NCBI GenBank assembly: GCA_000381605.1
Contig: KB906757.1
Location: forward strand, 248,001 to 312,000
Direction: 5' to 3'
DNA: 64,000 nucleotides
From: Acidobacteriaceae bacterium KBS 89
Lineage (GTDB): Bacteria; Acidobacteriota; Terriglobia; Terriglobales; Acidobacteriaceae
Made by a program: the position numbers and the translations under genes
Notes under the pieces: generated by a model
Databases searched by the model: none
What the model was told of the DNA's origin: nothing
What the model saw: only the letters and a program-made list of their open reading frames with translations
Part shown: positions 37,662-49,859 of the stretch, piece by piece
Layout of the letters: the number at the start of each line of letters is the position of its first letter
How positions within the stretch are numbered: the stretch's first letter is position 1

Positions 37662-37737
37662 GGGCCTGTGGCGCAGCTGGGAGCGCGCTTCCATGGCATG
37701 GAAGAGGTCATCGGTTCGATCCCGATCAGGTCCACCA
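37662..37737 (+). tRNA. tRNA-Ala(GGC)
   Basis: A 76-base cloverleaf with encoded CCA. Acceptor GGGCCTG pairs with CAGGTCC (one G-U), D-arm GCGC/GCGC, anticodon stem CTTCC/GGAAG with loop ATGGCAT giving anticodon GGC, T-arm ATCGG/CCGAT with TTCGATC loop. Its 3' part serves as the attachment site of the island that follows. Confidence 0.93.
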
Positions 37738-37739
37738 AT
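37693..37739 (+). repeat. attachment site attL (tRNA-Ala 3' part)
   Basis: The 47 bases from the anticodon loop to two bases past the CCA recur exactly at 47057-47103. The bases on either side of the match differ. The integrase gene ends 30 bases to the right, as is usual for an attL. Confidence 0.9.
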
Positions 37740-37768
37740 CAACCCCCTCCATATCAATGGTTTAACTG

Positions 37769-38944
37769 TCAGCCCTCCGTGCCGGTCTCTGACACGATAG
37801 GTGCTAATAGGTGCTGAGGCTTTTTCTGGCTCTCCGGCAGCATCATCTGGACGACCTGTGCATTGGCATCTCGTTTCTGTTGAGACACAGCGCGAGTGTA
37901 AATATCCAGCGTCGTTCTGGAGTTAGCGTGCCTGAGCAGTTCCTGAGCCACCTTTACGTCTACCCCCATAGCCCGCAGGTTGGTGGCCAGCGAGTGGCGG
38001 AAATTGTGCCACCCGATTTGCTTTCCAACAATGCCAGCTCTCTCTAGTGCCGGCCTGATGCTCCTCTTCAACAGGCTGTCTGGACTAAGCGGTTTGGTGC
38101 CGTTGAGCCTGACTGACGGGAAGAGGAAGTCCGAAGGTTCCTTGTACGGTGATTTCTCCCGCCACTCCAGAAGTGCTACTAGCACGACCGGATGAAGTGG
38201 AACAGGACGCCTCGAGCACTCCGTCTTCGTCTCCCCGAACCGGTTACGGACACAGGAGCGAAGAACATTCACTTCCATGGTTGTCTTATTTACATCTGCC
38301 CAGGTCAGCGCGATCATCTCTGACCGACGCAGGCCTGTACTGCCAGCCAACATCACCATCGCCCGGTCTCTGATGGAAAGTTGTGCCACCAGATCCCGGA
38401 ACTCTTGAGGGCTCAGGACGTCCTTCTCCCTGAGCCGCTTGGATGAAGTACGAACCTTGCTGATGGGGTTGAAGGTAAGCCACTGGTGGCGGATAGCGTG
38501 AGAATAAAGAACGGAGAACGTGCTCTTTATCTTGGTCTTTGATGCAGGTGCAAGTTTCAAACCATCGAGCCAGGATTCGACCTCCACGGTTCGGACTGAA
38601 GAGAGCTTGTGACTACCCCATCGTGGTTCGATATAGCGCTTCGTCAGAATCAGATGGTTCTCCTGACTGGCGTAGGCCTTTCTGGTCAGTTCGTGCTCTC
38701 TGTAATGAGCAAGAAGTTCCAGTACCGTCTGCGGTACCCGGACTTCGGAGTTGATGTTGACTCGAAGTGCGGCCACTGCCTTTTCGGCATCGCGCTTCGA
38801 AGGCAGTTCAGCGACCGTTCCAATAATCTGCCTGCGGTACTTCCTCTTGCCGTCTTTCTCTTCGTAGTATCGGAGGACCCATACATCTGAGGTGCCCTGC
38901 CGCAGTTCCTTGAGGAGGCTTCCCCTCTGGAACCGGTTGCTCAC
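37769..38944 (-). CDS. int: tyrosine-recombinase integrase of the island
   Basis: A 391-residue phage-type integrase. The N-terminal part (residues 1-70) includes WVLRYYEEKDGKRKYRRQIIG, an arm-binding AP2-like domain. A SAM-like core-binding domain spans about 75-165. The catalytic domain has Arg in GSTGLRRSEMIALTW, HNFRHSLATNL, LLRHANSRTTLDIYTRAV with the last His and nucleophile Tyr. The start is taken as GTG at 38944, where GTGA overlaps the stop of the excisionase-like gene. A longer frame to 39028 would run inside that gene. It most likely recombines the tRNA-Ala sites. Confidence 0.9.
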   Translation of the reverse strand: MSNRFQRGSLLKELRQGTSDVWVLRYYEEKDGKRKYRRQIIGTVAELPSKRDAEKAVAALRVNINSEVRVPQTVLELLAHYREHELTRKAYASQENHLILTKRYIEPRWGSHKLSSVRTVEVESWLDGLKLAPASKTKIKSTFSVLYSHAIRHQWLTFNPISKVRTSSKRLREKDVLSPQEFRDLVAQLSIRDRAMVMLAGSTGLRRSEMIALTWADVNKTTMEVNVLRSCVRNRFGETKTECSRRPVPLHPVVLVALLEWREKSPYKEPSDFLFPSVRLNGTKPLSPDSLLKRSIRPALERAGIVGKQIGWHNFRHSLATNLRAMGVDVKVAQELLRHANSRTTLDIYTRAVSQQKRDANAQVVQMMLPESQKKPQHLLAPIVSETGTEG

Positions 38945-39216
38945 GCAACTCTCCGTAGGGTGGTGGTTTCGCGACCATTGGATTGAGATTCGACCCAGGC
39001 CAGCAATTCGTGTTTGAAGAAGCGCCAAATGCGGCGGCGACCTTCACCAAGTGGGTGGGCTGGCACATAGCCGGCCCGCGCCCATCGGATCAAGGTCCGG
39101 TGATCCATAAGCAATACCAGAGCGGCCTCAGCTGGGGTCAGCAAATTTGGTGCGGTTGGGGGGCAGTCCGACGACCTAGCCGGCTGCGGCATCAATTTCA
39201 GTGCTTCCTTAGACAT
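38941..39216 (-). CDS. excisionase-like helix-turn-helix protein
   Basis: A 91-residue protein. LLTPAEAALVLLMDHRTLIRWARAGYVPAHPLGEGRRRIWRFFKHELLAWVESQ is the MerR/excisionase-type winged helix. The start at 39216 (MSKEAL) has a GGAACAG upstream; the longer frame to 39345 lacks support. It is coupled to the integrase by a GTGA overlap, so it should serve as a recombination directionality factor or as a repressor of the integrase. Confidence 0.8.
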   Translation of the reverse strand: MSKEALKLMPQPARSSDCPPTAPNLLTPAEAALVLLMDHRTLIRWARAGYVPAHPLGEGRRRIWRFFKHELLAWVESQSNGRETTTLRRVA

Positions 39217-39364
39217 TGTGCTGTTCCTTTTCATTCGGTTATATCGGGCCATACCGATGGTTAAGGTTGACCTGATGGACCTGCTTACGCCATCAGGTGA
39301 ATTCCTGATCTGCCCGTTTCTATCAGTCGGGAATCGCGTTGCCAAAGCTCATCGTCAACGAGTT

Positions 39365-40276
39365 TTACTGTCGCCGGAATTCCATTGCACTGTGATAGCC
39401 GCGAGCGAGTGTGGTGGCGTTGAGCTCGAAGTACCCAGCAGTCGTAGAGAGACTGCTATGTCCCATCAGGTCTCTCAAGACCATGCTGTTGATATTGGCG
39501 TTCGCCAAGTTGGTAGCGTAGGTGTGGCGCAGCCGATGGACATTGATGTGAGGGACACCGAGCCGCTTGCACCAAATCCGTAACGTGTATTGAATCGCCG
39601 CCACGGACATTCGCTGCTTGCGTTCCGACAAGAACAACGCCGGATGATCGTCTTTACGAGCGGCTAGATACTGGCCATATAGACGGAGTGTCTCGTCATC
39701 TACATAAAACTTACGGCGCTTCCCGCCTTTCCCCACAACTTCTCCAGCCCCGGTGATCCGATCGCGGCCGATCTCGTCCTCCTCAAGGACGAATTCGATG
39801 GTGTTGCGGTCAAGCGAGTGCATCTCTGAGACCCGAAGTCCAGTCGCAAGGAACAGGCCGACCAAGATTCGGTCGCGTAGCACGGTGATCCCATCGAGTA
39901 GCTTCTCGATCGTCATATCGTCAACGGGCTTCGGCTGGTTGTTCCGCTTCCAGCGGCGAACCAAATCGTCGAGTGGATTTCTGAGCTTCGGATTTGAGGT
40001 TGCTCGAACATAGTCGATATAACTGGACACAGCTGCCAGTCGTCGTGAGATCGACGATTCCGCGAGACCGGACCGGCCAAAGCGTGAATTCTCCTGCTGC
40101 CGCATATGCTCTATGAACTGGTTGATGACTGCGTGATCAACTTGGGTAAGCCGTCGAATTCCGGTCCGATCTAAAAACCTCTGGAACATCTTGAGGTCAC
40201 TTCGATAGGCAGTGATTGTCCGCGGACTGCAGTTTTTGTTGGTCCTCCAATGAGCGAGGAAGGGTTCAAAGTCCAT
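39365..40276 (-). CDS. XerC/XerD-like tyrosine recombinase
   Basis: A 303-residue recombinase of compact Xer size. The N-terminal core-binding domain reads FLAHWRTNKNCSPRTITAYRSDLKMFQRFLDRTG. The catalytic motifs are ATGLRVSEMHSLD, VHRLRHTYATNLANANI, LMGHSSLSTTAGYFELN with nucleophile Tyr, all intact. The ATG at 40276 (MDFEPF) is used: AGAGG lies upstream, and a longer frame to 40381 would run through the inverted repeat at 40351-40384. The catalytic lysine region is VVGKGGKRRKFYV. A second-site function on the island, distinct from integration at the tRNA, is possible. Confidence 0.88.
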   Translation of the reverse strand: MDFEPFLAHWRTNKNCSPRTITAYRSDLKMFQRFLDRTGIRRLTQVDHAVINQFIEHMRQQENSRFGRSGLAESSISRRLAAVSSYIDYVRATSNPKLRNPLDDLVRRWKRNNQPKPVDDMTIEKLLDGITVLRDRILVGLFLATGLRVSEMHSLDRNTIEFVLEEDEIGRDRITGAGEVVGKGGKRRKFYVDDETLRLYGQYLAARKDDHPALFLSERKQRMSVAAIQYTLRIWCKRLGVPHINVHRLRHTYATNLANANINSMVLRDLMGHSSLSTTAGYFELNATTLARGYHSAMEFRRQ

Positions 40277-40350
40277 GAGGGACCTCTTGTTTTTGAAACA
40301 TGTAACTCCTTTGTGATGAGCAGCTTGGCTCGATTGCGTGTTCGGGATTG

Positions 40351-40384
40351 AACGTGAAGTGTAACTCGGATTACACTTCACGTT
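40351..40384. repeat. perfect 14-6-14 inverted repeat between two recombinase genes
   Basis: Half-site AACGTGAAGTGTAA, spacer CTCGGA, then the exact reverse complement of the half-site. No T-run lies on either side, so it is a poor terminator candidate. Two arms with a 6-base spacer is the layout of tyrosine-recombinase core sites (loxP is 13-8-13; Xer dif sites have about 11-bp arms with a 6-bp centre). It lies 75 bases upstream of the Xer-like gene start. It could also be an operator. Confidence 0.85.
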
Positions 40385-40409
40385 CCGTAACCCATTGAAT
40401 CAATTGCAG

Positions 40410-41822
40410 TTATCCGGCACGCTTCAGGTGATTTAGGTATTCTTCGAAGGTCATCGACTTCTTCGTCGGCTTCGAGTGTTTCTTCTCCCGACTCAGGCGC
40501 ATGGCCTCGTCGTACCCGCGCCGGGCAAGGTCCGGATCGATCTCGGTGTAGCCCGCCATAGCTTCAGCCGTCTTCCAACCGCCCTGCGCCATGATCACGT
40601 TAACGTCCGCACCCGCTGATGCCAGGTTTGAGGCCATCGTGTGACGAAGGCGGTGAGTAGACCACTTGTCGAAGCCCGTTTCGTGAATCCGCTTCCCACG
40701 ATAGGTTTTGCAAAGAGTCTGGCGGAACTCATTCCTCAGCGACTCATGGCGGCTCGCATTTCCCCGCCGGTTGTGAAGAAGGTTGTCGTGCCCGCAATCC
40801 GGGTCGCGCTCCCGCATCCACTCCTCGTAATACTTCACGGTCAGATCGGAGAAGAACGCCCAGCGTACTGTATCGGTCTTATTGGGAGTGCCAACGAAGA
40901 GACGACGGCCCTTCAGATCGATGTCCCGAATGCTGAGGCGACTGATCTCCCCGATTCGCAGGCCGGCTTCATTGGCGATAGCTGCGGCCAACCGCAGGCG
41001 GGCGCTTCCCCTTTCTTCAAGGAGCTGCCACATCAATTCGGTCTCCGTCTGCTTCATCGGCCGAGGAGTCCCCTTCGGCTGCCGCTTGTAATGAAGAAGG
41101 GAGACAACGGGATTACCATTCTTCCGCTTCTTGTTGGCGATCGCCCACTTAAAGAACGTACTGATAAACGACACGTCCTTAGTTACAGTGCGCCGTCCGG
41201 CCTTCTCGCCCCACCTCTGGAAGTCGGTGATTGTCTTGGGATCCACGTCCTCAATGGAGTCGATACCCGTCTCGTTCAGGAATACAAAGAACGGGCCGAT
41301 GGCCTTCCGTACGGTCTGCTGCTCCTTGTAATGGAGCTTTGCATAACCCTCCAGATACTCGACGACCAAGTCGTAGTAACCTCCGGAAGTAGTGATGACG
41401 TACTGCTCGTGCAAGTAATTTCCGTAGTGCTGCAGCGACTTGAAGTACAGACCATTCATGGTCTTCCTCTCGGCTCGGCCCAGGAATTCCTCACTGCATC
41501 CGCAACCGCAAGTCAGAAGACGATTGCCCTTGGTCAGCCGCCTTATCCAGCATTCTCCGCAACACGTGAAGAAGTCGGCCCTATTGTCATAGCGACCTTC
41601 TGGGACGAAGTTGGGGCAGTCTGGCCCCTCACATTTATGCTCACCGGCCTTGATGTAGCGCCAGTACTTTGTATCCCTGACGACGACAGCACACTTTGGT
41701 TTGCCACAAAAGCGATGCCGCGCCCCCGGCCAAGTCTCATGTGCTGGCAAGGGATCCTTGCACTCAGGGCATAACCGTTCACCGTCCTTGTAAACCCTCA
41801 TCAGCTTCTGGTATGGCTTCAA
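40410..41822 (-). CDS. tyrosine recombinase with Cys-rich zinc-ribbon N-terminus
   Basis: A 470-residue protein. Residues 15-115 hold at least eleven Cys in CxxC-like pairs (CPECKDP, FCGKPKC, CEGPDC, CCGECW, CGCGC), which is unusual for a recombinase. Core-binding and catalytic domains follow: EAGLRIGEISRLS, STHRLRHTMASNLASAGADV, GGWKTAEAMAGYTEI. The second catalytic His of LGH is Trp, as in Cre. The start is TTG at 41822 with a strong GGAGG 6 bases upstream, and TTGA overlaps the stop of the preceding small HTH gene. Confidence 0.85.
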   Translation of the reverse strand: MKPYQKLMRVYKDGERLCPECKDPLPAHETWPGARHRFCGKPKCAVVVRDTKYWRYIKAGEHKCEGPDCPNFVPEGRYDNRADFFTCCGECWIRRLTKGNRLLTCGCGCSEEFLGRAERKTMNGLYFKSLQHYGNYLHEQYVITTSGGYYDLVVEYLEGYAKLHYKEQQTVRKAIGPFFVFLNETGIDSIEDVDPKTITDFQRWGEKAGRRTVTKDVSFISTFFKWAIANKKRKNGNPVVSLLHYKRQPKGTPRPMKQTETELMWQLLEERGSARLRLAAAIANEAGLRIGEISRLSIRDIDLKGRRLFVGTPNKTDTVRWAFFSDLTVKYYEEWMRERDPDCGHDNLLHNRRGNASRHESLRNEFRQTLCKTYRGKRIHETGFDKWSTHRLRHTMASNLASAGADVNVIMAQGGWKTAEAMAGYTEIDPDLARRGYDEAMRLSREKKHSKPTKKSMTFEEYLNHLKRAG

Positions 41823-42022
41823 GCGACCCTCCTTGCCGCCGTCATCTTGTAGGCGTCGATCAGTTGGAAAAGGTCCTTGGAATCGAACCTTTCCTCGCCG
41901 GCGATCCTGATGGGCAGGATCTGCCGTGTGTCTACTAGCTGCTGGACCTTCTCCTCCGGGAGCTGCAGCAGGGAGACGATCTCCCCACGCAGCAGTAGCC
42001 GGCGTTCGTGTTGCATTTGCAT
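41819..42022 (-). CDS. small DNA-binding (excisionase-like) protein
   Basis: A 67-residue protein: LLRGEIVSLLQLPEEKVQQLVDTRQILPIRIAGEERFDSKDLFQLIDAYK has the helix-turn-helix-wing order of MerR/excisionase-type proteins. The ATG at 42022 (MQMQHE) has AGGAGAAGG directly upstream; an ATG 6 bases later is an alternative. It is coupled by TTGA to the zinc-ribbon recombinase. Likely its directionality partner or regulator. Confidence 0.7.
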   Translation of the reverse strand: MQMQHERRLLLRGEIVSLLQLPEEKVQQLVDTRQILPIRIAGEERFDSKDLFQLIDAYKMTAARRVA

Positions 42023-42188
42023 ATGCCTTCTCCTGGTCAAACCTTCAGCCAGAAGTGACCCGCTCCACAGCTCCGTCCGACGCTTGGGTCGCGGCCGGCG
42101 AACGTGGTCTCATCTGACTGCGCTGAGAATTGCATCCCAGAGCGGTCGAGCCATCGGCATAGCTAAATTGCTGGGCTTTTTTGCAGAA

Positions 42189-42356
42189 TCAGGACGCCGG
42201 GGGAGGCAGAAGCCGACAGTCGATGGCGGGAAACTCGACAAGATCTCCAGGCCTTCGCAATAATCGCCACAGCGCCAGTTCCAGAAGTTGGGTAGCTAGG
42301 ATGAGAAGGAGCAAGGGAAGTATTAAACCCAGCAGTCGAATCAGGATTGGTCGCAA
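42189..42356 (-). CDS. possible 55-residue membrane protein with TTG start
   Basis: An open frame from TTG at 42356 to TGA at 42189. It begins (M)RPILIRLLGLILPLLLL, followed by ILATQLLELALWRLLRR and a Pro-rich tail. AAGGGG lies 7 bases upstream of the TTG. A single hydrophobic stretch of about 20-25 residues with basic flanks would be a small inner-membrane peptide, perhaps a toxin-like or helper peptide. The only support is composition and the ribosome site. The surrounding 42023-42567 region otherwise holds no gene. Confidence 0.35.
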   Translation of the reverse strand: MRPILIRLLGLILPLLLLILATQLLELALWRLLRRPGDLVEFPAIDCRLLPPPAS

Positions 42357-42567
42357 GGTTCATCCCCTTTATCATCAATGAGTTCGAAGTCGAATGGCAC
42401 TTGTACCAATCGGAGTGGGCGCGGCGGCCGAGCCACTGCATCTGTGGTCTCAGGTAAAAGGGGTGTGGAATTACGGGGGATGCGGGTTGGTTTCATGCAC
42501 TATCTCCATAGAAATGGTGGCTCTTGAACCACCGGGTTGTTGATGCGATTGATTTGAGCCAAATACA

Positions 42568-42656
42568 TGCCATATGGAATTGATATGACATATACATGCC
42601 GTTTGGAATAGACTAGAAAGACTATGCCAAATGGAATATATATATAGACCAAATGG
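42568..42656 (+). promoter_or_regulatory. iteron-like operator array upstream of the MarR-like gene
   Basis: Direct repeats TGCCATATGGAAT (42568-42580), TGCCGTTTGGAAT (42597-42609) and TGCCAAATGGAAT (42625-42637) spaced 28-29 bases apart, plus a fourth, diverged ACCAAATGG (42648-42656) that contains the start codon. Each has a CCNNNTGG-like palindromic centre. TATATATATA at 42638-42647 could be the -10. Probably autoregulation by the MarR-like protein. Confidence 0.7.
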
Positions 42657-43105
42657 CTAACAGAAAAGATGAAGTAACATTCGATGAGTTTGTGCGGATC
42701 TGGGCGACTTGGTCGTCGAATGTCCCGGCTCAGTTAGCGCGTCAGGACCCAAGCACCGTGGCACAGCTCTTGAATCTCGGTCTGCGGGAAGGGGGTATCT
42801 CGCAGACCGACCTGCAGCGAGAACTTCGAATGAATCAGCCACGATTGAGCAAACTGGTGAAGAAGCTGCTCCGGGCAGGTTGGGTCCGGGTGAGGAGATC
42901 GGAAACTGACAATCGAGTCAGGCTGATGACCACGACAGTACCGGCGCGAAAACGGATAGCCAGGATGACGGCGGATTTGGAGAGCTTGTTGCGGGCAGGA
43001 AGGGTTGAGCTGGCACAGACTCCTGTGCGAAAGCAGACAGTGTCCCCACCTCGTAGGCGTATCGAGAAACAGCCATTACCCCAGTTCTTCAAGTTCGAAG
43101 AATAG
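42653..43105 (+). CDS. MarR-like winged-helix regulator of the island
   Basis: A 150-residue protein. STVAQLLNLGLREGGISQTDLQRELRMNQPRLSKLVKKLLRAGWVRVRRSETDNRVRLMTTTVPARKRI (residues 34-102) is a MarR-type winged helix with the D/N-R wing tip. A C-terminal basic tail (RKQTVSPPRRRIEKQ) may add DNA contacts. No Shine-Dalgarno is present and the ATG lies inside the last operator repeat close to the -10, so a leaderless mRNA is likely. It precedes the restriction endonuclease gene by 84 bases and may act as its controller (C-protein-like role, inference). Confidence 0.8.
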   Translation: MANRKDEVTFDEFVRIWATWSSNVPAQLARQDPSTVAQLLNLGLREGGISQTDLQRELRMNQPRLSKLVKKLLRAGWVRVRRSETDNRVRLMTTTVPARKRIARMTADLESLLRAGRVELAQTPVRKQTVSPPRRRIEKQPLPQFFKFEE

Positions 43106-43189
43106 GTATGTGACGGCCTTGGGGAACCACGCGCATGAAGGGATATGATTGATCCATTGGTACACCAAGGTAGGAAAGAGGATCCAAGA

Positions 43190-43999
43190 ATGCGCCGGAA
43201 GAACGAGCCTGGAGCTCTCTACCGCGAAATTGTGAAGATAATGATGCGCATCCCCGACGGCGTGACAGCTGCCGATTTAAGGGCAGGGTTGGGACTTGAA
43301 CCCGGAGAACAGGAACACTTAGGGCGACGGCTCCGGGACATGCACAAGTATTACAAAATACAAAAAGCCCCCTCCTTTCGTCGCGTAAATGGAACGAACA
43401 GAGCCGTCACACTCTACAAGTACATCGGGGAACGTGACGAGGTAACCGACGAAGGGCAGGTGAGTCAAAAAGTCCGCGCGGCGATTCTGCACGGAGCTTT
43501 CGGGCGATGCCAGATGTGCGGCCAAACCATCGAACAAGACGGCATAAAGCTCGTCGTTGATCACAAAATCCCGCGCAATTGGGGTGGATCGAACGACCCC
43601 GAAAACCTTTGGGCGATTTGTGAGACGTGCAACGGAGGAAAGAAGGCCCACTTCGCATCTGTCAATGCGAGCGCTGACATCATGAAGAGAGCTTTGGTGC
43701 ATCACAGCGTCCGCAAGCGGATTGGAGAACTACTCTTGGCCTATGGGGTAGGCGTGGAAGTTCCAACCTATATCCTCGAGATTGTCGCTGGTCAGGATGA
43801 ATGGCGGAAGCGATTGCGTGAGTTGCGCTATCCGGTTATCGGGTGGGAAATTGACAACAAAACAAGGAAGATCAACGGCCGAAAAAAGAGCTTCTACGTC
43901 TTGAAACGGTCCCTTCCATGGCCGCCCGATCCTGACGCGCTAATCCGGCAATTTGAGGAAGATCGTAAGAAGCGAAATCGTGAAGGCCTAGGCGTTTGA
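43190..43999 (+). CDS. HNH restriction endonuclease (putative)
   Basis: A 269-residue protein. Residues 5-75 form a winged-helix-like N-terminus (EIVKIMMRIPDGVTAADLRAGLGLEP, RLRDMHKYYKI). The HNH nuclease centre spans 105-150: CQMCG (107-110), VVDHKIPRNWGGSNDPENLWAICETC, with catalytic His125, Asn and the second zinc pair Cys144/Cys147. The ATG at 43190 has AAAGAGGA upstream. It is convergent with vsr and the C5 methyltransferase, overlapping vsr by 12 bases at the ends. Association with those genes makes it a type II restriction enzyme candidate. The recognition site is unknown. Confidence 0.78.
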   Translation: MRRKNEPGALYREIVKIMMRIPDGVTAADLRAGLGLEPGEQEHLGRRLRDMHKYYKIQKAPSFRRVNGTNRAVTLYKYIGERDEVTDEGQVSQKVRAAILHGAFGRCQMCGQTIEQDGIKLVVDHKIPRNWGGSNDPENLWAICETCNGGKKAHFASVNASADIMKRALVHHSVRKRIGELLLAYGVGVEVPTYILEIVAGQDEWRKRLRELRYPVIGWEIDNKTRKINGRKKSFYVLKRSLPWPPDPDALIRQFEEDRKKRNREGLGV

Positions 44000-44410
44000 A
44001 GGGTACTCGCCCAGAAACGATGAGAGCTTTTGGGTAAGGTCTGAAACCTTGGAGATCTCGCACTCCCATATAACCAAGACGCCCCATCCAGCTTCTTGCA
44101 GAGCAGAGACGCTCGACCGGTCTCGTTCACGATTCTTGTTCAATTTCGGCTCCCAATATTCGGGTCGTGATTTTGGCAGGCGTCCTTCGCGGCATTGAGG
44201 ATGCTGATGCCAAAAGCACCCATGCACAAAGATCACCTTACCGAGGCCAGGGAAAACCAGATCTGGCTTCCCCGGGAGATCCTTACGATGAAGCCGAAAC
44301 CGATAGCCCATCGCATGCACCATTCGGCGCACGGCCATTTCGGGTCGCGTGTCTCTGTCCCGGATTAGTCGCATGTTTGCGGAGCGACGGCTTTCGGTGA
44401 GGCGGTCCAT
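43988..44410 (-). CDS. vsr: very short patch repair endonuclease Vsr
   Basis: A 140-residue nuclease that nicks at T:G mismatches left by deamination of 5-methylcytosine. All family hallmarks are present: MRLIRDRDTRPEMAVRRMVHAMGYRFRLHRKDLPGKPDLVF with Asp50, VIFVHGCFWHQHPQC with His63, His68 and zinc ligands Cys65, His70, Cys73, then PEYWEPKLNKNRERD and VLVIWECE. GAAGGAG lies 9 bases before the ATG at 44410. The gene begins inside the methyltransferase gene, overlapping it by 128 bases in another frame. Confidence 0.93.
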   Translation of the reverse strand: MDRLTESRRSANMRLIRDRDTRPEMAVRRMVHAMGYRFRLHRKDLPGKPDLVFPGLGKVIFVHGCFWHQHPQCREGRLPKSRPEYWEPKLNKNRERDRSSVSALQEAGWGVLVIWECEISKVSDLTQKLSSFLGEYPSNA

Positions 44411-45440
44411 CTGGTTCGACTCCTTCGACTCGGATTGCTGAGTTGTTCTTGAGCAGCGTGCCTCCTCTAGGATTCAGTTTCTGTCCCTTCCGCAAGCAGC
44501 TGGCGATCGCCTCGGCCAGTGCCTTAGCGACGGGCGGAGGGAAGGCGTTGCCCACTTGCCGGTAGGTTGATGTCTTCGCGCCAGCGAACTGCCAGGAATC
44601 ATCGAAGCCCTGTACCCTGGCAGCCATCCTTACAGTCAGGTGCGGGTCTCCTGCGAATCCGGGCTGCGGCGCTTCCTTCGCTAGAAGATGCCCATTGACG
44701 CCCAGTTTTGCCCATTCTCGTTTGGCCCGCGTAGGGCCGAGGTCTGGACCTCCATGCTTCTTGCTGCCACCCACCAGCGTGGGAGCAATCCCATTGGCCC
44801 TGTCGCGCCAATCATGAGCTCCTTCCCATCCTTGTTCAGCCATCAGGTCAAATAGCTTTTCACCAACTGTTGGAGGCTTCGGCCCTGCCTTCGGCCACTT
44901 GAAATGCTGCTTCCAACCTTTCGGGACAGCAACGAAAGCTGCGCGGGGTCTTAGTTGCGGCACTCCGAACTCGGAAGCGTTGAAGATCTTCCACTCGAAC
45001 GGGTGGTATCCCAAGGTGCAGATTTCGGCTGCAAACGCATCTCTGAAGCCAGTGAACTTCGGATTTAGGATGCCGCTCACGTTTTCAATGAGGATCGCCT
45101 TCGGCCGAACCTGACGGATGATTTTCAAAGCCGCGGGGAAGAGGTTCCTCTCGTCGTCTTCCCCCAATTGCTTCCCTGCTTTCGACCATGGCGGGCACGG
45201 AAGACCTGCAGCAAGAACGTCGGTACCTGCGAACTCGGCCGCGTCAAACAAGTGAATATCGCCCTTACACTCGCCTTCGATCACATTCCACTCAGGGCGA
45301 TTGAGCCGAAGCGTAGCTCTCGCGTCCTTATCTATTTCAAGCAATCCCACATGCGCGTATTTGGCTGCTTCGAAGCCGAGCGCCTGGCCACCAGCACCTG
45401 CACAAAGTTCAAGTACGGTAAGAAGTTTCATTCGTTTCAA
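44283..45440 (-). CDS. DNA (cytosine-5-)-methyltransferase
   Basis: A 385-residue modification methylase. Motif I LELCAGAGGQALGFE (10-24), motif IV GLPCPPWSKAGKQ with catalytic Cys82, motif VI ENV (119-121), motif VIII region VPQLRPRAAFVAV, variable region, then motif X RQVGNAFPPPVAKAL. The final 50 residues after CLRKGQKLNPRGG are encoded in DNA that also codes for Vsr and look non-conserved. It protects the host from the HNH enzyme. An ATG at 45431 (MKLLTVLELC) is an alternative start. Confidence 0.93.
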   Translation of the reverse strand: MKRMKLLTVLELCAGAGGQALGFEAAKYAHVGLLEIDKDARATLRLNRPEWNVIEGECKGDIHLFDAAEFAGTDVLAAGLPCPPWSKAGKQLGEDDERNLFPAALKIIRQVRPKAILIENVSGILNPKFTGFRDAFAAEICTLGYHPFEWKIFNASEFGVPQLRPRAAFVAVPKGWKQHFKWPKAGPKPPTVGEKLFDLMAEQGWEGAHDWRDRANGIAPTLVGGSKKHGGPDLGPTRAKREWAKLGVNGHLLAKEAPQPGFAGDPHLTVRMAARVQGFDDSWQFAGAKTSTYRQVGNAFPPPVAKALAEAIASCLRKGQKLNPRGGTLLKNNSAIRVEGVEPDGPPHRKPSLRKHATNPGQRHATRNGRAPNGACDGLSVSASS

Positions 45441-45492
45441 GTTTATCTCCTCGGGCGATCTGAGTCCGCCACGGCTAGTAGTATTAAATGCA

Positions 45493-45523
45493 AGCCGCCA
45501 ATCCCCTATTGAGATTGGCGGCT
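45493..45523 (-). terminator. hairpin between the methyltransferase and the 45557 gene
   Basis: AGCCGCCAATC paired with GATTGGCGGCT, 11-bp perfect stem, 9-base loop. It lies 34 bases beyond the stop of the minus-strand gene at 45557 and upstream of the methyltransferase start. The following minus-strand bases are T-rich but mixed, so termination strength is uncertain. Confidence 0.7.
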
Positions 45524-45556
45524 GTCCTGCCAGATGTTGCTGGGTTTAGTCCGTCA

Positions 45557-45937
45557 TCAGTGACTTCCTGAGACGAGTGATTTCGCAAATGCCTCGGCGC
45601 TGGGCCAATCTGCCGAGACATAAATATCCTTGGCCTTGCCGGCTTTGGTCTCGGTCACGACAAAGAAGGAGTAGAGTCTCGGATACTGGCGGACGTCTTC
45701 AAGCGATGCTTCGCTCAACTCCTCCCAAAGGAAGTCCTCGTAGTCTGGTCCGTCGGGGGCTGGTATATCGTCGGGCTTGTAGTTCTTTTCGATTTCCAAT
45801 GCAGTCGCGAGGCTTTTCATGGCCGCGCCGTCGATGTTACCGAAGACCTCGCGGGCGTAGGACGGGTCGTAGGTCTTGAGAACCTCGACTCTCCGATCTT
45901 CGGCTTGCTGCGTAAAAAACAATTCTTGCTGGGGCAT
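45557..45937 (-). CDS. island hypothetical protein, acidic
   Basis: A 126-residue acidic, soluble protein with no recognised domain: helical residues 15-60 (DRRVEVLKTYDPSYAREVFGNIDGAAMKSLATALEIEKNY), then DDIPAPDGPDYEDFLWEELSEASLEDVRQYPRLYSFFVVTETKAGKAKDIYVSADWPSAEAFAKSL. GGAG lies 9 bases upstream. It is transcribed toward the methyltransferase but separated from it by a hairpin. Possibly a cargo or anti-restriction-type acidic protein, but nothing specific supports this. The 207-base AT-rich gap to its right (45938-46144) holds divergent promoters. Confidence 0.55.
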   Translation of the reverse strand: MPQQELFFTQQAEDRRVEVLKTYDPSYAREVFGNIDGAAMKSLATALEIEKNYKPDDIPAPDGPDYEDFLWEELSEASLEDVRQYPRLYSFFVVTETKAGKAKDIYVSADWPSAEAFAKSLVSGSH

Positions 45938-46144
45938 CCCTTATATCTCCGGCTGATCTATTATGCCTCCCGGTCGTCCTGCGGAACGAACTGAACAGTA
46001 CCTGGCATATATATGTGTGTATAGTTCCGTGAAAAGCGATTTGTTATGCTAAGTCAAACAGCAGGTATAACTTGACTGGACGCGGCATGGCACTCGCCGG
46101 GTAGAATCAAGGGTAGGCCATAAATGAGGGAAAGGCCTGGCGAC

Positions 46145-46561
46145 ATGGCAATTGAGCCGCAACCCGATGAGTCAGGCGCGAAACTGGTCAAAGCACCGAT
46201 CAGAAAAACGCACACGGCGTTGTCACGCGTACAGCGCGCACTCACGGATCAGGAGCTGTCCACAACCGGCGTGCAAAAGATGTTGGTGGAACGGATCTCA
46301 GAAGCTGAGGAGCGGAACAAGTTACTCGAAACCTATCGTGACCAGTTTTACTCCAGTGAGAAACAAGTTGCAGTATTGGACGCGAAGCTCCAACGAACAC
46401 GGTCTGCGGAAATACTCTCCAGCGGGTGTTTGGCCGTCGGAGCCATCCTGCTGGGATATACACCGTCGGTATGGAAGGCTCAACCCAGCGGATGGTTTTC
46501 ACTGATTTTGGGCTTGATTCTTTTGACGATCGGGATACTCGCAAAGGCCATACGTTTATGA
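46145..46561 (+). CDS. coiled-coil protein with two C-terminal membrane helices
   Basis: A 138-residue protein. Residues 30-85 are a long charged helix or coiled coil (LSTTGVQKMLVERISEAEERNKLLETYRDQFYSSEKQVAVLDAKLQRT). Two membrane segments follow at about 88-106 (LSSGCLAVGAILLGYT) and 114-134 (WFSLILGLILLTIGILAKAI) with a 10-residue loop. The ATG at 46145 is preferred over 46124, because an AAAGG lies upstream. Its stop overlaps the next start by 4 bases (ATGA). The N-helix-plus-2TM layout recalls membrane effectors of defence systems, but no family match is claimed. Confidence 0.65.
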   Translation: MAIEPQPDESGAKLVKAPIRKTHTALSRVQRALTDQELSTTGVQKMLVERISEAEERNKLLETYRDQFYSSEKQVAVLDAKLQRTRSAEILSSGCLAVGAILLGYTPSVWKAQPSGWFSLILGLILLTIGILAKAIRL

Positions 46562-46911
46562 AGATCGAGATTAGCTCGTTCGCAGACAAGGGCGTTATTC
46601 AAAACGAACGTCTGGTAATCAAGCTGCTGGATGACCTTGATATCGGAGAGTACGCCGTGTTCTGTTCTTCCAGTACTGATGGCTCTCCGTTGTCCGGGAA
46701 ATCTACGGCTTTTTGGTTCCCGGATGAGTCGCTACAGCGCGGAGATCTAGTTGTCCTTTATACGAAGAGTGGATCAACAAGAAAAAAGGAGCTGGGGTCG
46801 GGCGGTACCGCTCATTTCTTTTATTGGGGGTTGGACGCGCCTGTATGGACGGGCCAGAATGGTGCAGTCTTACTTGAGGTCAAGGAATGGTCTTACAGGC
46901 TGTCTAAGTGA
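46558..46911 (+). CDS. beta-rich, lamin-tail-like hypothetical protein
   Basis: A 117-residue soluble protein: MKIEISSFADKGVIQNERLVIKLLDDLDIGEYAVFCSS, then FWFPDESLQRGDLVVLYTKSG, HFFYWGLDAPVWTGQNGAVLLEVKEWSY. The order of a Phe/Pro/Asp strand, a GDLVVLY strand, a WGL...PVW strand and a final LLE strand resembles the immunoglobulin-like lamin tail domain. This is a by-eye comparison. It is translationally coupled to the coiled-coil membrane gene upstream, so the two products probably form a complex. Function unknown. Confidence 0.6.
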   Translation: MKIEISSFADKGVIQNERLVIKLLDDLDIGEYAVFCSSSTDGSPLSGKSTAFWFPDESLQRGDLVVLYTKSGSTRKKELGSGGTAHFFYWGLDAPVWTGQNGAVLLEVKEWSYRLSK

Positions 46912-47056
46912 GTGTGATCCAGGCATCGCGCACATGCCGCAAACAGGTGCTGAAATAGGTGCTGAAGCGATGCCTCCGGGCCGTTCCGCTGCTTTTGAGT
47001 GCCGATGAAACTCCTTCCGGTCTCGTCGTTTCAGTCAGTTACGCGAGCCGGTTACT

Positions 47057-47103
47057 ATGGCATGGAAGAGGTCATCGGTTCGATCCCGATCAGGTCCACC
47101 AAT
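47057..47103 (+). repeat. attachment site attR (duplicate of tRNA-Ala tail)
   Basis: Exact 47-base copy of 37693-37739. The 5' half of the tRNA is missing, so no tRNA is encoded here. It marks the right end of the island, 52 bases before the sorbosone-dehydrogenase-like gene. Confidence 0.9.
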
Positions 47104-47154: not shown

Positions 47155-48549
47155 CTATTTTCCGGTGTAAGCGACGCGCCAGATGCTGCGAGAACCGTCA
47201 TCTGTCACGTAGAGGGCGCCATCGTGACCTACGGCTACTCCTACCGGCCGGCCCCAAACCTGTCCATCTGCTGTGACAAACCCGGTAAGAAAATCCTCGT
47301 ACTCTCCGGTGGCTTTGCCGTTCTTCATGGGAATCCGGATAACCTCGTATCCTCCGCGATTGGCACGGTTCCAGGACCCGTGTTCGGCTGCGAATCCGTC
47401 TCCCTCGTATTCGGATGGGAAGGTGGATTTACTGGTGGGATAAAAGGTCATTCCGAGCGAGGCCATGTGGGGTTGAACCAAGACATCGGGGGTAATGACC
47501 TTGGATTTGAGTTCAGGATGGGTGCCCATAAGCCGCGGGTCCTGATGACCGCCCATGTAGAACCAGGGCCAACCATAGAAACCGTCTTCCTTTACTGACG
47601 TTACATAGTCCGGAACGAGATTGTTCCCCAGGCCGTCACGCTCGTTCGTTGAGCACCACAACTCACCCGTAACAGAGTTGATTGCCTCGCCGACGCAGTT
47701 ACGAATTCCGTAGGCGTACACTTTGACGAATTTCCCCTCCGGGGTGTACTCCAACACATCCGCCCGATGGAACTCTCTGGGATGGGTGTCGGGATCGTCG
47801 GCATTCGATCCACTTCCGACGGACACGAGCATATGCTTGCCGTCGGCAGAGAAGACGACATCCCTGGTCCAGTGGCCGCCGCCGCGTAGTTGAGCATAGC
47901 CGGGGAGATCGGGCACGATTGTCGCAGGCGTGCTAGCAGCTTTTAGATCTCCGGACTTGTAGGCGAATCGAACGACGGTTGTGGCGTTGCCGACGTAGAC
48001 CCATTGAGGATTTGCGCCAGCAGGATAAAAGGCAATGCCAAAGGGGTGATCGAGGCCAGTAGCGAAGGTGCTAATGGTGGTTGCCTTGCCAGCATCGGTG
48101 ACACCGCGCATCACCAGGATGGAACCAGCCTGCGAGTCGGCTACGAAGAGATCGCCGTTGGGTGCAGGATGGATGATGCGGGGCATGACGAAGGTTCCGG
48201 AGGTGGGCGGATGCGTTTCTTTCTTGTTTTCGGATCGCTGCATTGGGGTGGCTGCATCACCGCCCGCATAGAGCTGGACCGTAAAGCCGGCTGGGGCAAT
48301 GGGCCACGCGCCCTCTGGCCTTTGGACAAGCGTGGGACCGTTGTCTACAGACTCAGAGGGTTTCGGTTCAGGCAGGTCAGCCACGGTTATCTTTCGCCGC
48401 ACCCCTGGCTTCTGCTGCGTGTAGTCGGCGAAGGCGGCCTGACCGGTGATCGTCTGCTGGGCATGGAGCGGCGAAGGAAGAAACGCGGTAAAGGTGAGAG
48501 AGGCCAACACCTGGAACTTTCGGAAGCGTGAACGTCTCATATTTCTCAT
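47155..48549 (-). CDS. exported sorbosone-dehydrogenase-like PQQ-type sugar oxidoreductase
   Basis: A 464-residue protein with a signal peptide (residues 1-30, ending PLHAQQ) and a six-bladed propeller: PRIIHPAPNGDLFVADSQAGSILVM, LDHPFGIAFYPAGANPQWVYVGNATTVVRF, WTRDVVFSADGKHMLVSVGSGSN, EVYAYGIRNCVGEA-type blade YAYGIRNCVGEAINSVTGELWCSTNERDGLGNNLVPDYV, and HDGALYVTDDGSRSIWRVAY. This is the glucose/sorbosone dehydrogenase fold, where PQQ and calcium are bound in the central channel. It would oxidise sugars in the periplasm. A 77-base gap separates it from the aldo/keto reductase. Confidence 0.85.
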   Translation of the reverse strand: MRNMRRSRFRKFQVLASLTFTAFLPSPLHAQQTITGQAAFADYTQQKPGVRRKITVADLPEPKPSESVDNGPTLVQRPEGAWPIAPAGFTVQLYAGGDAATPMQRSENKKETHPPTSGTFVMPRIIHPAPNGDLFVADSQAGSILVMRGVTDAGKATTISTFATGLDHPFGIAFYPAGANPQWVYVGNATTVVRFAYKSGDLKAASTPATIVPDLPGYAQLRGGGHWTRDVVFSADGKHMLVSVGSGSNADDPDTHPREFHRADVLEYTPEGKFVKVYAYGIRNCVGEAINSVTGELWCSTNERDGLGNNLVPDYVTSVKEDGFYGWPWFYMGGHQDPRLMGTHPELKSKVITPDVLVQPHMASLGMTFYPTSKSTFPSEYEGDGFAAEHGSWNRANRGGYEVIRIPMKNGKATGEYEDFLTGFVTADGQVWGRPVGVAVGHDGALYVTDDGSRSIWRVAYTGK

Positions 48550-48626
48550 CTCCCTATACTAATTTTGCAACAGTCGATCGTGGCTGGGCTTAAGTAAGAA
48601 ACAATGACACGAAGTCTGGCCCCGCT

Positions 48627-49514
48627 TTAACCACGCAGACTTACCGGAGGATGGCTTACAGCGGACAGCTGCTCGTAAGCAGCCTGAGGGAGTTCAAGAC
48701 CCGCAGCGGCGATATTCTCCTCCAGGTGCTTGATCGAAGATGTTCCTGGGATAGGCAGGATCACTTTGGAACGCTTGAGCAGCCAGGCCAATGCGACCTG
48801 CAAAGGAGTTGCCTCGAGATCGTTCGCAAGTTTCTTGATGGCATCATGTGCCTCCCTCGCCTGACCGAGCGGAGCCCACGGAAGGAAAGCGATATTGTTC
48901 TGCTCGCAATAGTCGACGATGAAGTCCGATTCCCGATCGGCGAAGCTGTAGCGGTTCTGCACCGAGACAATCGGCACGATATTGCGTGCCCTCTCGACGT
49001 GTTCGCGAGTCACATTCGAAAGCGCGACATGACGAATCTTACCCTGCTTGCGCAGACTGGCCAGTGCATCTACCGACGCCTCGAAGGAGACAGCATTATC
49101 GGGAGCGTGGAGTTGATAGACGTCGATGCGGTCCAGACGCAGGCGCTTCAGACTTCCCTCGAGCGCTTCGGTGAGATGTTTCGGACTGGCGTTGTGGGTC
49201 CATTGGCCGGGGCCCGGGCGCTCCCATCCGGCCTTGGTTGCGATCACTAGTTCAGCTTGATAAGGGTAGAGTGCTTCCGCGATCAGCTCTTCGGAGGTAC
49301 CAGGACCGTAGGAGTCGGCTGTGTCAATCAGATTCACGCCGACTTCAATCGTACGTCGCAGGGTCGCAAGCGCAGCGGTTTTGTCTGCGGGAGGCCCCCA
49401 CACGCCTGGACCTGTGATGCGCATCGCGCCATAGCCCATTCGGTTGACGATGAGATCACCACCAATGGTGAAGGTGCCGGCAGCTGCGGCTGAAAGGGTC
49501 TGATGGTTGTTCAT
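48627..49514 (-). CDS. aldo/keto reductase
   Basis: A 295-residue NADPH-dependent (beta/alpha)8 oxidoreductase. GVNLIDTADSYGPGTSEELIAEAL holds the catalytic Asp/Tyr; VIATKAGW supplies Lys; YQLHAPDN supplies His. The C-terminal VILPIPGTSSIKHLEENIAA is the cofactor phosphate-binding motif. The ATG at 49514 has AAGGAGA upstream; an upstream frame to 49646 lacks support. Lies 77 bases upstream of the sorbosone-dehydrogenase-like gene on the same strand and may be co-transcribed. Confidence 0.9.
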   Translation of the reverse strand: MNNHQTLSAAAAGTFTIGGDLIVNRMGYGAMRITGPGVWGPPADKTAALATLRRTIEVGVNLIDTADSYGPGTSEELIAEALYPYQAELVIATKAGWERPGPGQWTHNASPKHLTEALEGSLKRLRLDRIDVYQLHAPDNAVSFEASVDALASLRKQGKIRHVALSNVTREHVERARNIVPIVSVQNRYSFADRESDFIVDYCEQNNIAFLPWAPLGQAREAHDAIKKLANDLEATPLQVALAWLLKRSKVILPIPGTSSIKHLEENIAAAGLELPQAAYEQLSAVSHPPVSLRG

Positions 49515-49859
49515 GAGATTTCTCCTTTTACATCCATCTTGAAGACTTGTGACAAGCCCACTGTCTTTAGAAATCCGATTGAGATACCGAGCATCGCTAT
49601 TCGCCATTACGACATCGGTCTCGTATCTGGTGGACGAGCGAATCATTGGGTTTGTTTCGTACTCTCCCCCAGTGGTTCGCGATCGGCTCCAGGAACGCAG
49701 GTCCGCCTACTTCGTCGAGTGGCGACGGCCCTCCGTCTCTAAGAAATGGTCTGGCGATATTGTCGGGTCGCATCAATGGACACGCTTGTGGGAGGCTTTC
49801 ACCGCTTTGAAAAGGCAAATTTGCATCCTAAACTCAGGAATGATCCTAGGAGGGTGCAT
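49515..49859. other. 345-base divergent intergenic region, no supported gene
   Basis: Between the minus-strand aldo/keto reductase and the plus-strand small membrane gene. It should contain the promoters of both. Open frames here (for example 49549-49899) have no ribosome site, family character or codon regularity. Nothing further was recognised. Confidence 0.5.

Follow-up and report, generated by a model that had tools for sequence, protein, structure and literature searches.

The question raised by this locus is what three tyrosine recombinases are doing in one compact genomic island. The island lies in a stretch of 64,000 nucleotides from Acidobacteriaceae bacterium KBS 89 (the window; positions 248,001 to 312,000 of the forward strand of contig KB906757.1, assembly GCA_000381605.1), is inserted at a tRNA-Ala(GGC) gene and is 9,364 bp long by the start-to-start spacing of its flanking repeats. 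A preliminary description correctly recorded three recombinases and two helix-turn-helix (HTH) proteins in about 4.3 kb and remarked on the high share of recombination functions; these are three tyrosine recombinases and two small HTH-like proteins at 37769–42040, the 73-residue one being without a Pfam match. The remark was correct but stopped short, as comparative evidence separates the recombinases into two systems, namely a tRNA integrase with its excisionase (int1 and xis1) and a module of three genes (hth3, int3 and int2) that is inherited separately and may act on a site of its own. The features on which this argument rests are given below in window coordinates.

37662–37737, plus strand: tRNA-Ala(GGC), the target gene, intact; sole tRNA in the window by ARAGORN; Rfam tRNA 58.8 bits.
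37693–37739, plus strand: left attachment (att) repeat, the 3′ part of the tRNA, 47 bp; exact copy at 47057–47103.
37769–38944, minus strand: int1, tRNA-site integrase, 391 residues from a GTG after GGAGAG, open reading frame (ORF) open to 39028; PF00589 8e-29; PHROG integrase; R-H-R-H-Y present.
38941–39216, minus strand: xis1, excisionase-like HTH_17 protein, overlapping the int1 start; PF12728 4.6e-11 (longer ORF); PHROG excisionase 3.1e-8.
39365–40276, minus strand: int2, Xer-like tyrosine recombinase, 303 residues from ATG, ORF open to 40381; PF00589 1.3e-27, PF02899 5.8e-15; R-H-R-H-Y; one clade with 11 relatives.
40410–41822, minus strand: int3, tyrosine recombinase with a Cys-rich N-terminal part; PF00589 3.4e-24; invariant R289, K315, H390, R393, W416 and Y425 (eight aligned rows).
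41819–42040, minus strand: hth3, small protein of 73 residues, overlapping the int3 start; HTH by reading only, no Pfam match; beside int3 in 11 of 12 loci.
42059–42175, no strand: conserved site of about 117 bp upstream of hth3, a possible recombination site, from sequence comparison of loci.
42072–42080 and 42089–42097, no strand: arms of an imperfect inverted repeat in the site, 8-bp spacer; inner three bases complementary in eight of nine sites.
42145–42163, no strand: second box of the site, GTCGAGCCATCGGCATAGC; CCA common to nine of nine sites.
47057–47103, plus strand: right att repeat, 47 bp, exact copy of the left repeat.

The two systems were compared over 12 usable loci, i.e. loci with enough context and with open int2 and int3 frames: G000 (the present genome), G032, G085, G183, G400, G142, G250, L098, G244, G025, G031 and G394. 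Eleven of these come from the 15 int3-bearing genomes of the family, and L098 is a contig of a metagenome-assembled genome. Three imperfect loci were kept, namely G400 (contig ending within int1), G025 (shortened int2) and G394 (int2 4 kb from int3). Left out were G429 (a 3.85-kb contig with hth3, int3 and int2), G155 (contig end), G008 (a short contig with hth3, an int3 containing one TAG and tRNA-Met, and with no int2) and G157 (an int3-like ORF of 307 residues beside tRNA-Gly, without int2 or hth3). Pairwise similarities of int2 and int3 rise and fall together (r = 0.82, p = 0.0001 by permutation), whereas those of int1 follow neither int2 (r = 0.17, p = 0.11) nor int3 (r = −0.05, p = 0.60). 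Between G000 and G400 int1 agrees at 82% (over 297 residues), int2 at 42% and int3 at 28%; G032 and G085, both at tRNA-Pro, give 73, 39 and 33%, respectively; and between G000 and G142 the values are 61% for int2, 56% for int3 and 35% for int1. In a phylogenetic tree with long branches int2 forms one clade (support 100/100) and int3 another (100/99), both of which carry a fully supported branch that sets L098, G183, G085, G400 and G250 against the other seven loci, while the integrases near the module belong to several unlike groups. Furthermore, a 26.5-kb stretch between tRNA tails in genome G028 contains int1 and xis1 without int3, hth3 or the site, and matches int2 only as a weak cross-match inside its int1. 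Because of this separate divergence and the occurrence of int1 and xis1 without the module in G028, int1 and xis1 can be read as the tRNA integration system and hth3–int3–int2 as another. Comparison shows the module to be separate from int1, and int1 with xis1 is an ordinary, exchangeable tRNA integrase.

The same data bear on the proposal that all three recombinases, together with the small HTH proteins, belong to a single integration machine, none of them working alone, like the four gin genes of the GInts. The number of recombinases is the same, and they stand in one same-strand run; according to PMC5385486, GInts need three integrases together with GinD. Another recombinase also lies near the module in every usable locus. 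However, relatives of Int1 occur in islands without int2 and int3, such as the G028 stretch, the divergence of int1 does not follow that of the pair, and the integrases beside the module come from several unlike groups. A single machine is therefore considered rather unlikely.

Each of the 12 usable loci has int2 close to int3 (at 4 kb in G394) and one more tyrosine recombinase within a few kilobases of int3; hth3 is present in 11, none being found in G244. ARAGORN placed a neighbouring tRNA in ten loci, G400 stopping at int1 and G142 having a tRNA-Met tail instead, and five kinds of tRNA are represented, with one case of Ala, three of Pro, two of Met, one of Thr and three of Ser. The integrase is on the opposite side of hth3 in G025, G031 and G394. 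It was also observed that locus L091 of G031 has a tandem pair of int3-like genes ahead of int2, making three module recombinases plus the integrase. These neighbours bear on the idea that the module is a selfish transposon-like unit, similar to Tn554 or to RIT elements, whose presence in tRNA islands is incidental. Such elements typically have two or three recombinases side by side, as the trio of plasmid pBAM2 illustrates, but such a unit would have to account for another recombinase nearby in 12 of 12 loci and a tRNA gene in ten; the remaining four int3-bearing genomes are the short contigs of G429, G008 and G155, and G157, in which the gene is beside tRNA-Gly. This origin is judged highly improbable.

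The module was sought more widely with int3. A search at 1e-20 gave a match in 12 of 298 genomes of the order, and an int3 profile gave matches in 15 of 398 genomes of the family at 1e-30 and in five of 396 genomes of the phylum at 1e-40, all five from the same genus as the present genome. Searching genome contigs with int3 returned seven loci, all in records named Acidobacteria, Acidobacteriaceae, Edaphobacter or Bryocella. Among plasmids 26 records matched int3, none covering 80% of the query and with at most 27.6% identity in the best 20 of the 26, and a single-protein search of viral contigs gave one match of 23 residues. In what was sampled, the module appears to be confined to Acidobacteria.

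The role of int1 can be judged from the borders of this island and its sisters. The left att repeat, which consists of the final 45 bases of tRNA-Ala and two further bases, recurs base for base on the right, as the preliminary description had stated, and the bases beyond the two copies differ, as it also stated. The 47-mer has exactly two copies in the 6,009,926-bp genome, no other occurrence being found with up to three mismatches and none for a reversed-pattern control. Direct repeats of the tRNA 3′ end thus stand at both island ends, as is usual for tRNA islands, with int1 ending 29 bp from the left one. Five islands could be delimited by tRNA tail repeats: that of G000 (9,364 bp), those of G032 (9,241 bp), G085 (8,464 bp) and G183 (23,762 bp) at tRNA-Pro, and that of G142 (9,003 bp) with its tRNA-Met tail. 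Empty sites were sought for G000, G032 and G085. The right flank of the G085 island adjoins tRNA-Pro directly in G014 (94.7% over 1,503 columns, from the first base), and that of the G032 island does so in G025 (95.4% over 1,504 columns, from the first base); the left flanks also agree, at 99.7% over 1,500 bp and at 93–97% in three pieces, respectively. Given these clean empty sites, insertion at the tRNA is established for two of the five islands (G085 and G032). The interpretation of the locus as a compact integrated tRNA-Ala island has accordingly held up, with support from the genus-wide reuse of the target site and from these sister islands with the same gene order; the island as such is real but ordinary. 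A DNA methylase is present in all four compact islands, and the cargo differs between the islands looked at; the present island belongs to an element family found in Acidobacteriaceae. A fixed island size for packaging was considered and dropped, as four islands measure 8.5–9.4 kb but that of G183 measures 23.8 kb. Separately, on contig C1 of G142 one tRNA-Met is followed by two consecutive stretches bounded by tRNA tails, the first of about 40 kb and the second of 9.0 kb, and the first contains a UG19-type reverse transcriptase.

Both module recombinases look catalytically complete. The catalytic columns read R-H-R-H-Y in int2 and R-H-R-W-Y in int3, each in 11 of the 12 loci. Int2 is Xer-like by profile, although it falls far under the Xer cut-offs. 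In the N-terminal part of Int3 six cysteines are invariant in six rows; its predicted model is of middling quality (predicted local distance difference test 75, predicted template-modelling score 0.48), and a fold search gave Xer and integrase structures as the best matches. Because catalytic residues have mostly been kept and the two proteins diverge together, joint selection on int2 and int3 is suggested.

A candidate substrate lies directly upstream of the module. Sequences of 117–121 bp are alike upstream of hth3 in eight loci (seven of the 12 usable loci and the broken locus of G008), giving nine copies in all, located 18–101 bp from the hth3 match. G085 has two copies in tandem, and G400 (L123) has a weak second copy (21.5 bits) 4.4 kb from the first, with a MarR-like gene and other ORFs in between. 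A model of the site, built from the loci that it then finds, matched 113 of 300 family genomes at E ≤ 0.1, mostly weakly. Scores of 49 bits or more were obtained for only six, each a training locus next to the module, and the best score after these was 23.9 bits; 24 of the weaker loci were checked, and no island gene lay within 1.5 kb of any of them. Within the site the inner three arm bases are complementary across a spacer of 6–8 bp in eight of the nine copies. Averaged over 86 placements, among them the true one, the count is 1.0 of nine; eight is reached again one base away, and elsewhere the count is at most four. When the arms were re-dealt between sequences, none of 2000 trials reached eight; four inner bases are complementary in seven of nine copies, which two of 2000 re-dealings equalled. 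As the site sequences are related, these placement and re-dealing counts are not probabilities. An initial inverted-repeat search along the whole site gave no position common to the sequences; the position used in the later anchored tests was picked by eye, and in G142 the arms selected by the program lie elsewhere than the position read by eye. RNAalifold found one short hairpin per strand in the nine sequences (−3.4 and −2.8 kcal/mol), the plus-strand hairpin falling exactly on the inverted repeat. From their sequences the arms would fit a tyrosine-recombinase core, and a leader-RNA hairpin of hth3 would fit too. A structured RNA was rejected as a candidate, since no larger shared fold appeared and Rfam gave the tRNA and one sub-threshold match only.

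Two further explanations turn on this site. It might be only a promoter/operator or a leader hairpin of the hth3 operon, the extra recombinases having no role now. Its position 18–101 bp upstream of the hth3 match suits this, and a hairpin in RNA, such as RNAalifold places there, would likewise keep the arms complementary; int2 and int3, however, mostly keep their catalytic residues and co-diverge, which makes a purely regulatory site hardly probable at all. Alternatively, Int2, Int3 and Hth3 might swap or capture cargo at the site, which sits between the recombinase operon and cargo that differs between the islands examined. The degenerate second copy of G400 and the tandem pair of G085 favour such an exchange. 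However, six of the eight loci have a single copy (G250 and G008 being on short contigs), so that no cargo is seen flanked by sites there, and the second copy in G400 scores little better than unrelated matches. Cargo exchange is considered improbable, and since there is one site copy per locus in those six of eight, resolution fits better than cargo capture.

The interpretation preferred here, which is given an even chance of being correct, is that int1 moves the island and that int2, int3 and hth3 form an accessory recombination system on the site of about 120 bp; by analogy, this accessory system would most resemble the resolvase/irs systems of the Tn3 family. As anatomy and comparison indicate, Int1, helped by Xis1, would insert the element into the 3′ half of a tRNA gene and excise it from there, leaving repeats of 45–47 bp. 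Comparison further shows that hth3–int3–int2 is a second, separately inherited module found beside different tRNA integrases. Int2 and Int3 may then work as a pair on the site, with Hth3 as an architectural or regulatory factor. The site would comprise a palindromic core with a spacer of 6–8 bp and, at a distance from it, a second box; proteins bound to the site would regulate the operon as well. The system would most probably serve to resolve dimers or tandem copies of the element, tandem tRNA tails having been seen at these tRNAs. The restriction-modification-Vsr cargo may help to keep and spread the element, and transfer from cell to cell would need a helper.

A more specific proposal is put forward tentatively, at somewhat below an even chance. 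It holds that this is an undescribed heteromeric system in which two co-evolving, catalytically complete tyrosine recombinases and a 73-residue protein act on their own site of about 120 bp, independently of the exchangeable integrase, and keep islands of Acidobacteriaceae modular by resolving tandem copies or swapping cargo. If so, one recombination backbone could combine with integrases that target tRNA-Ala, -Pro, -Met, -Thr or -Ser.

Several observations weigh against the preferred interpretation. The int2 of G025 is cut short and lacks the C-terminal tyrosine part, and the tyrosine column of the G400 int3 reads T, possibly through an alignment fault. Five of the 12 loci (L098, G025, G031, G394 and G244) gave no site match better than E = 4. 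The site model recovers the loci from which it was made, and most of its matches in the 113 genomes are weak. An anchored test with 9-bp arms was weaker than that with the inner bases, 99 of 5000 random placements reaching the observed mean. The second copies of the site in G085 and G400 suit cargo capture better. The site could be an operator or RNA attenuator hairpin of the hth3 operon, the arm-complementarity test fitting DNA and RNA alike. The number of delimited islands is small. Finally, the empty tRNA-Ala site that the preliminary description had proposed to look for was found in none of 62 genomes of the genus.

The module was also set beside known systems. With tRNA genomic islands that have a phage-type integrase and an excisionase, the element shares Int1, Xis1, the tRNA 3′ repeats, accessory cargo and, for two sister islands, empty sites in relatives; it differs from ordinary ones in having, in addition, a conserved site and a module of two recombinases with an inheritance of its own. 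GInts (ginABCD), according to PMC5385486, likewise have three integrases, a small HTH or helix-loop-helix protein and restriction systems in their cargo. However, their att repeats are described there as imperfect and 10–17 nt long, compared with 45–47 nt here (47 bp, exact); ginA is at the outer end and cargo follows ginD, whereas here the outermost gene is int1, transcribed in the direction of the tRNA; and GinC lacks the first arginine, which all three recombinases keep here. In addition, int1 is exchangeable. Membership of the GInts was rejected on these features of att repeats and gene layout.

RIT elements, according to PMC3414803, also have three adjacent tyrosine recombinases on one strand, but their genes overlap successively (by 4 bp twice in the pBAM2 trio), whereas here xis1, HTH genes and gaps lie between or beside them. 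The RitC-like protein of the pBAM2 trio is nearest to int2, at only 28%; this trio, called RIT by its form and not by its record, is the only one in the tree. Membership was rejected, as the successive overlaps are absent and the RIT rows belong to neither the int2 nor the int3 clade (one trio, long branches). The Tn3-family systems TnpI/irs and TnpS+TnpT/rst, as described in PMC7157771, share an inverted-repeat core and further repeats beside the recombinase gene, and TnpS+TnpT is heteromeric. Such a core is present here, although the repeat may instead form a hairpin RNA, and the site is placed as res, irs and rst sites are in that account. The likeness is one of description, and here there is no transposase and there are two catalytic recombinases instead of one and a helper. 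Strand-biased circularizing elements (SEs) have several integrase-fold proteins and a small one; in PMC10214605 their synteny blocks are reported from Gammaproteobacteria only and their core is intA, tfp, intB and srap, and by this description they were set apart. A gamma-mobile-trio was rejected as well, int2 scoring 35 bits and int1 33.1 bits against the GmtY NCBIfam cut-off of 340. A limited literature search (titles and abstract openings among the matches listed) gave no description of the module in Acidobacteria. What appears to be new is the paired recombinase module with its site, the function of which we infer from sequence. Within one small island the choice of address, made by the int1 enzyme, is separate from a second recombination system that is passed on as a unit, and the 117-bp site offers a defined test substrate. 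If the pair recombines this site, single-copy upkeep or the reshuffling of defence cargo could be explained and a two-catalyst system would be added to the known resolvases. The finding is also a sign that Acidobacteriaceae have a family of compact islands that carry restriction genes.

The target gene itself is much used. The full tRNA-Ala was sought in 61 genomes, 60 of which gave some match, and the same extracytoplasmic function (ECF) sigma gene stands upstream of it in 28 of 30 loci fetched (including the present one). An int1-like integrase of 24–81% identity is found within 1.5 kb of the tRNA in 15 of 29 loci of relatives (one match over only 35 residues). Extra tRNA-Ala tails occur about 3 to 121 kb downstream in many genomes; for example, G014 and G028 have two each and G012 has three. 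The tRNA-Ala(GGC) gene is a recurrent integration hotspot in the genus. Its matches in the 62 genus genomes extend at most about 17 bases past the 47-bp core into the right flank of the window. In 18 stretches from relatives, most of which start at the tRNA, a single right-side gene of the window had a counterpart with at least 50% identity, at 53% in G026, where the match is about 12 kb beyond the tRNA. The island is followed by a GSDH-family gene and a neighbouring gene (47155–49646), which occur together in G014, G002, G018 and G025. As they lie far from tRNA-Ala in G014 and G002, the right flank has probably been rearranged. Elsewhere in the present genome a copy of the tRNA-Pro tail (C1:1144765–1144811), about 41 kb from the tRNA-Pro gene at C1:1103147, suggests another island.

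The gene order from the tRNA is int1, xis1, int2, int3 and hth3 (minus strand), MarR-like and HNH genes (plus), vsr, the C5-methylase and a 126-residue protein gene (minus) and two small genes (plus). The coordinates and the gene list of the preliminary description, which named recombinases, a restriction-modification-Vsr set and unknown genes, were right, and its claim that transfer genes are absent was borne out by a Pfam scan of 14 island ORFs, among which there were none. The remaining features are as follows.

42567–42637, no strand: three ATGCCNNNTGGAAT repeats, 28–29 bp apart, immediately upstream of the MarR-like gene.
42653–43105, plus strand: MarR-like winged-helix protein, divergent from hth3; PF12802 8.5e-11.
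43145–43999, plus strand: HNH nuclease, likely restriction enzyme; PF01844 1.3e-10; PADLOC REase_II 1.2e-7.
43988–44410, minus strand: Vsr endonuclease; TIGR00632 149.9 bits, cut-off 97.85.
44283–45440, minus strand: C5-cytosine DNA methyltransferase; PF00145 3.8e-61; PADLOC PDLC00029 1.8e-131.
45557–45937, minus strand: 126-residue protein, no family; 60% relative in G142.
46124–46561, plus strand: 145-residue protein, hydrophobic C-terminus by reading; sub-threshold Pfam only (DUF4231 at 0.061).
46558–46911, plus strand: 117-residue protein, no family; no plasmid match.

The ATGCCNNNTGGAAT repeats end 15 bp before the MarR-like gene and are likely to be its operator, although they are iteron-like. 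Two small minus-strand ORFs (42189–42356 and 42341–42496) lie between the conserved site and this gene; the first reads as hydrophobic, and a similar-looking ORF of 70 residues (MRSILI...) is found at a like place in G085. At the far end of the island the genes of the 145- and 117-residue proteins (46124–46911) overlap, and this pair may be a small two-gene system.

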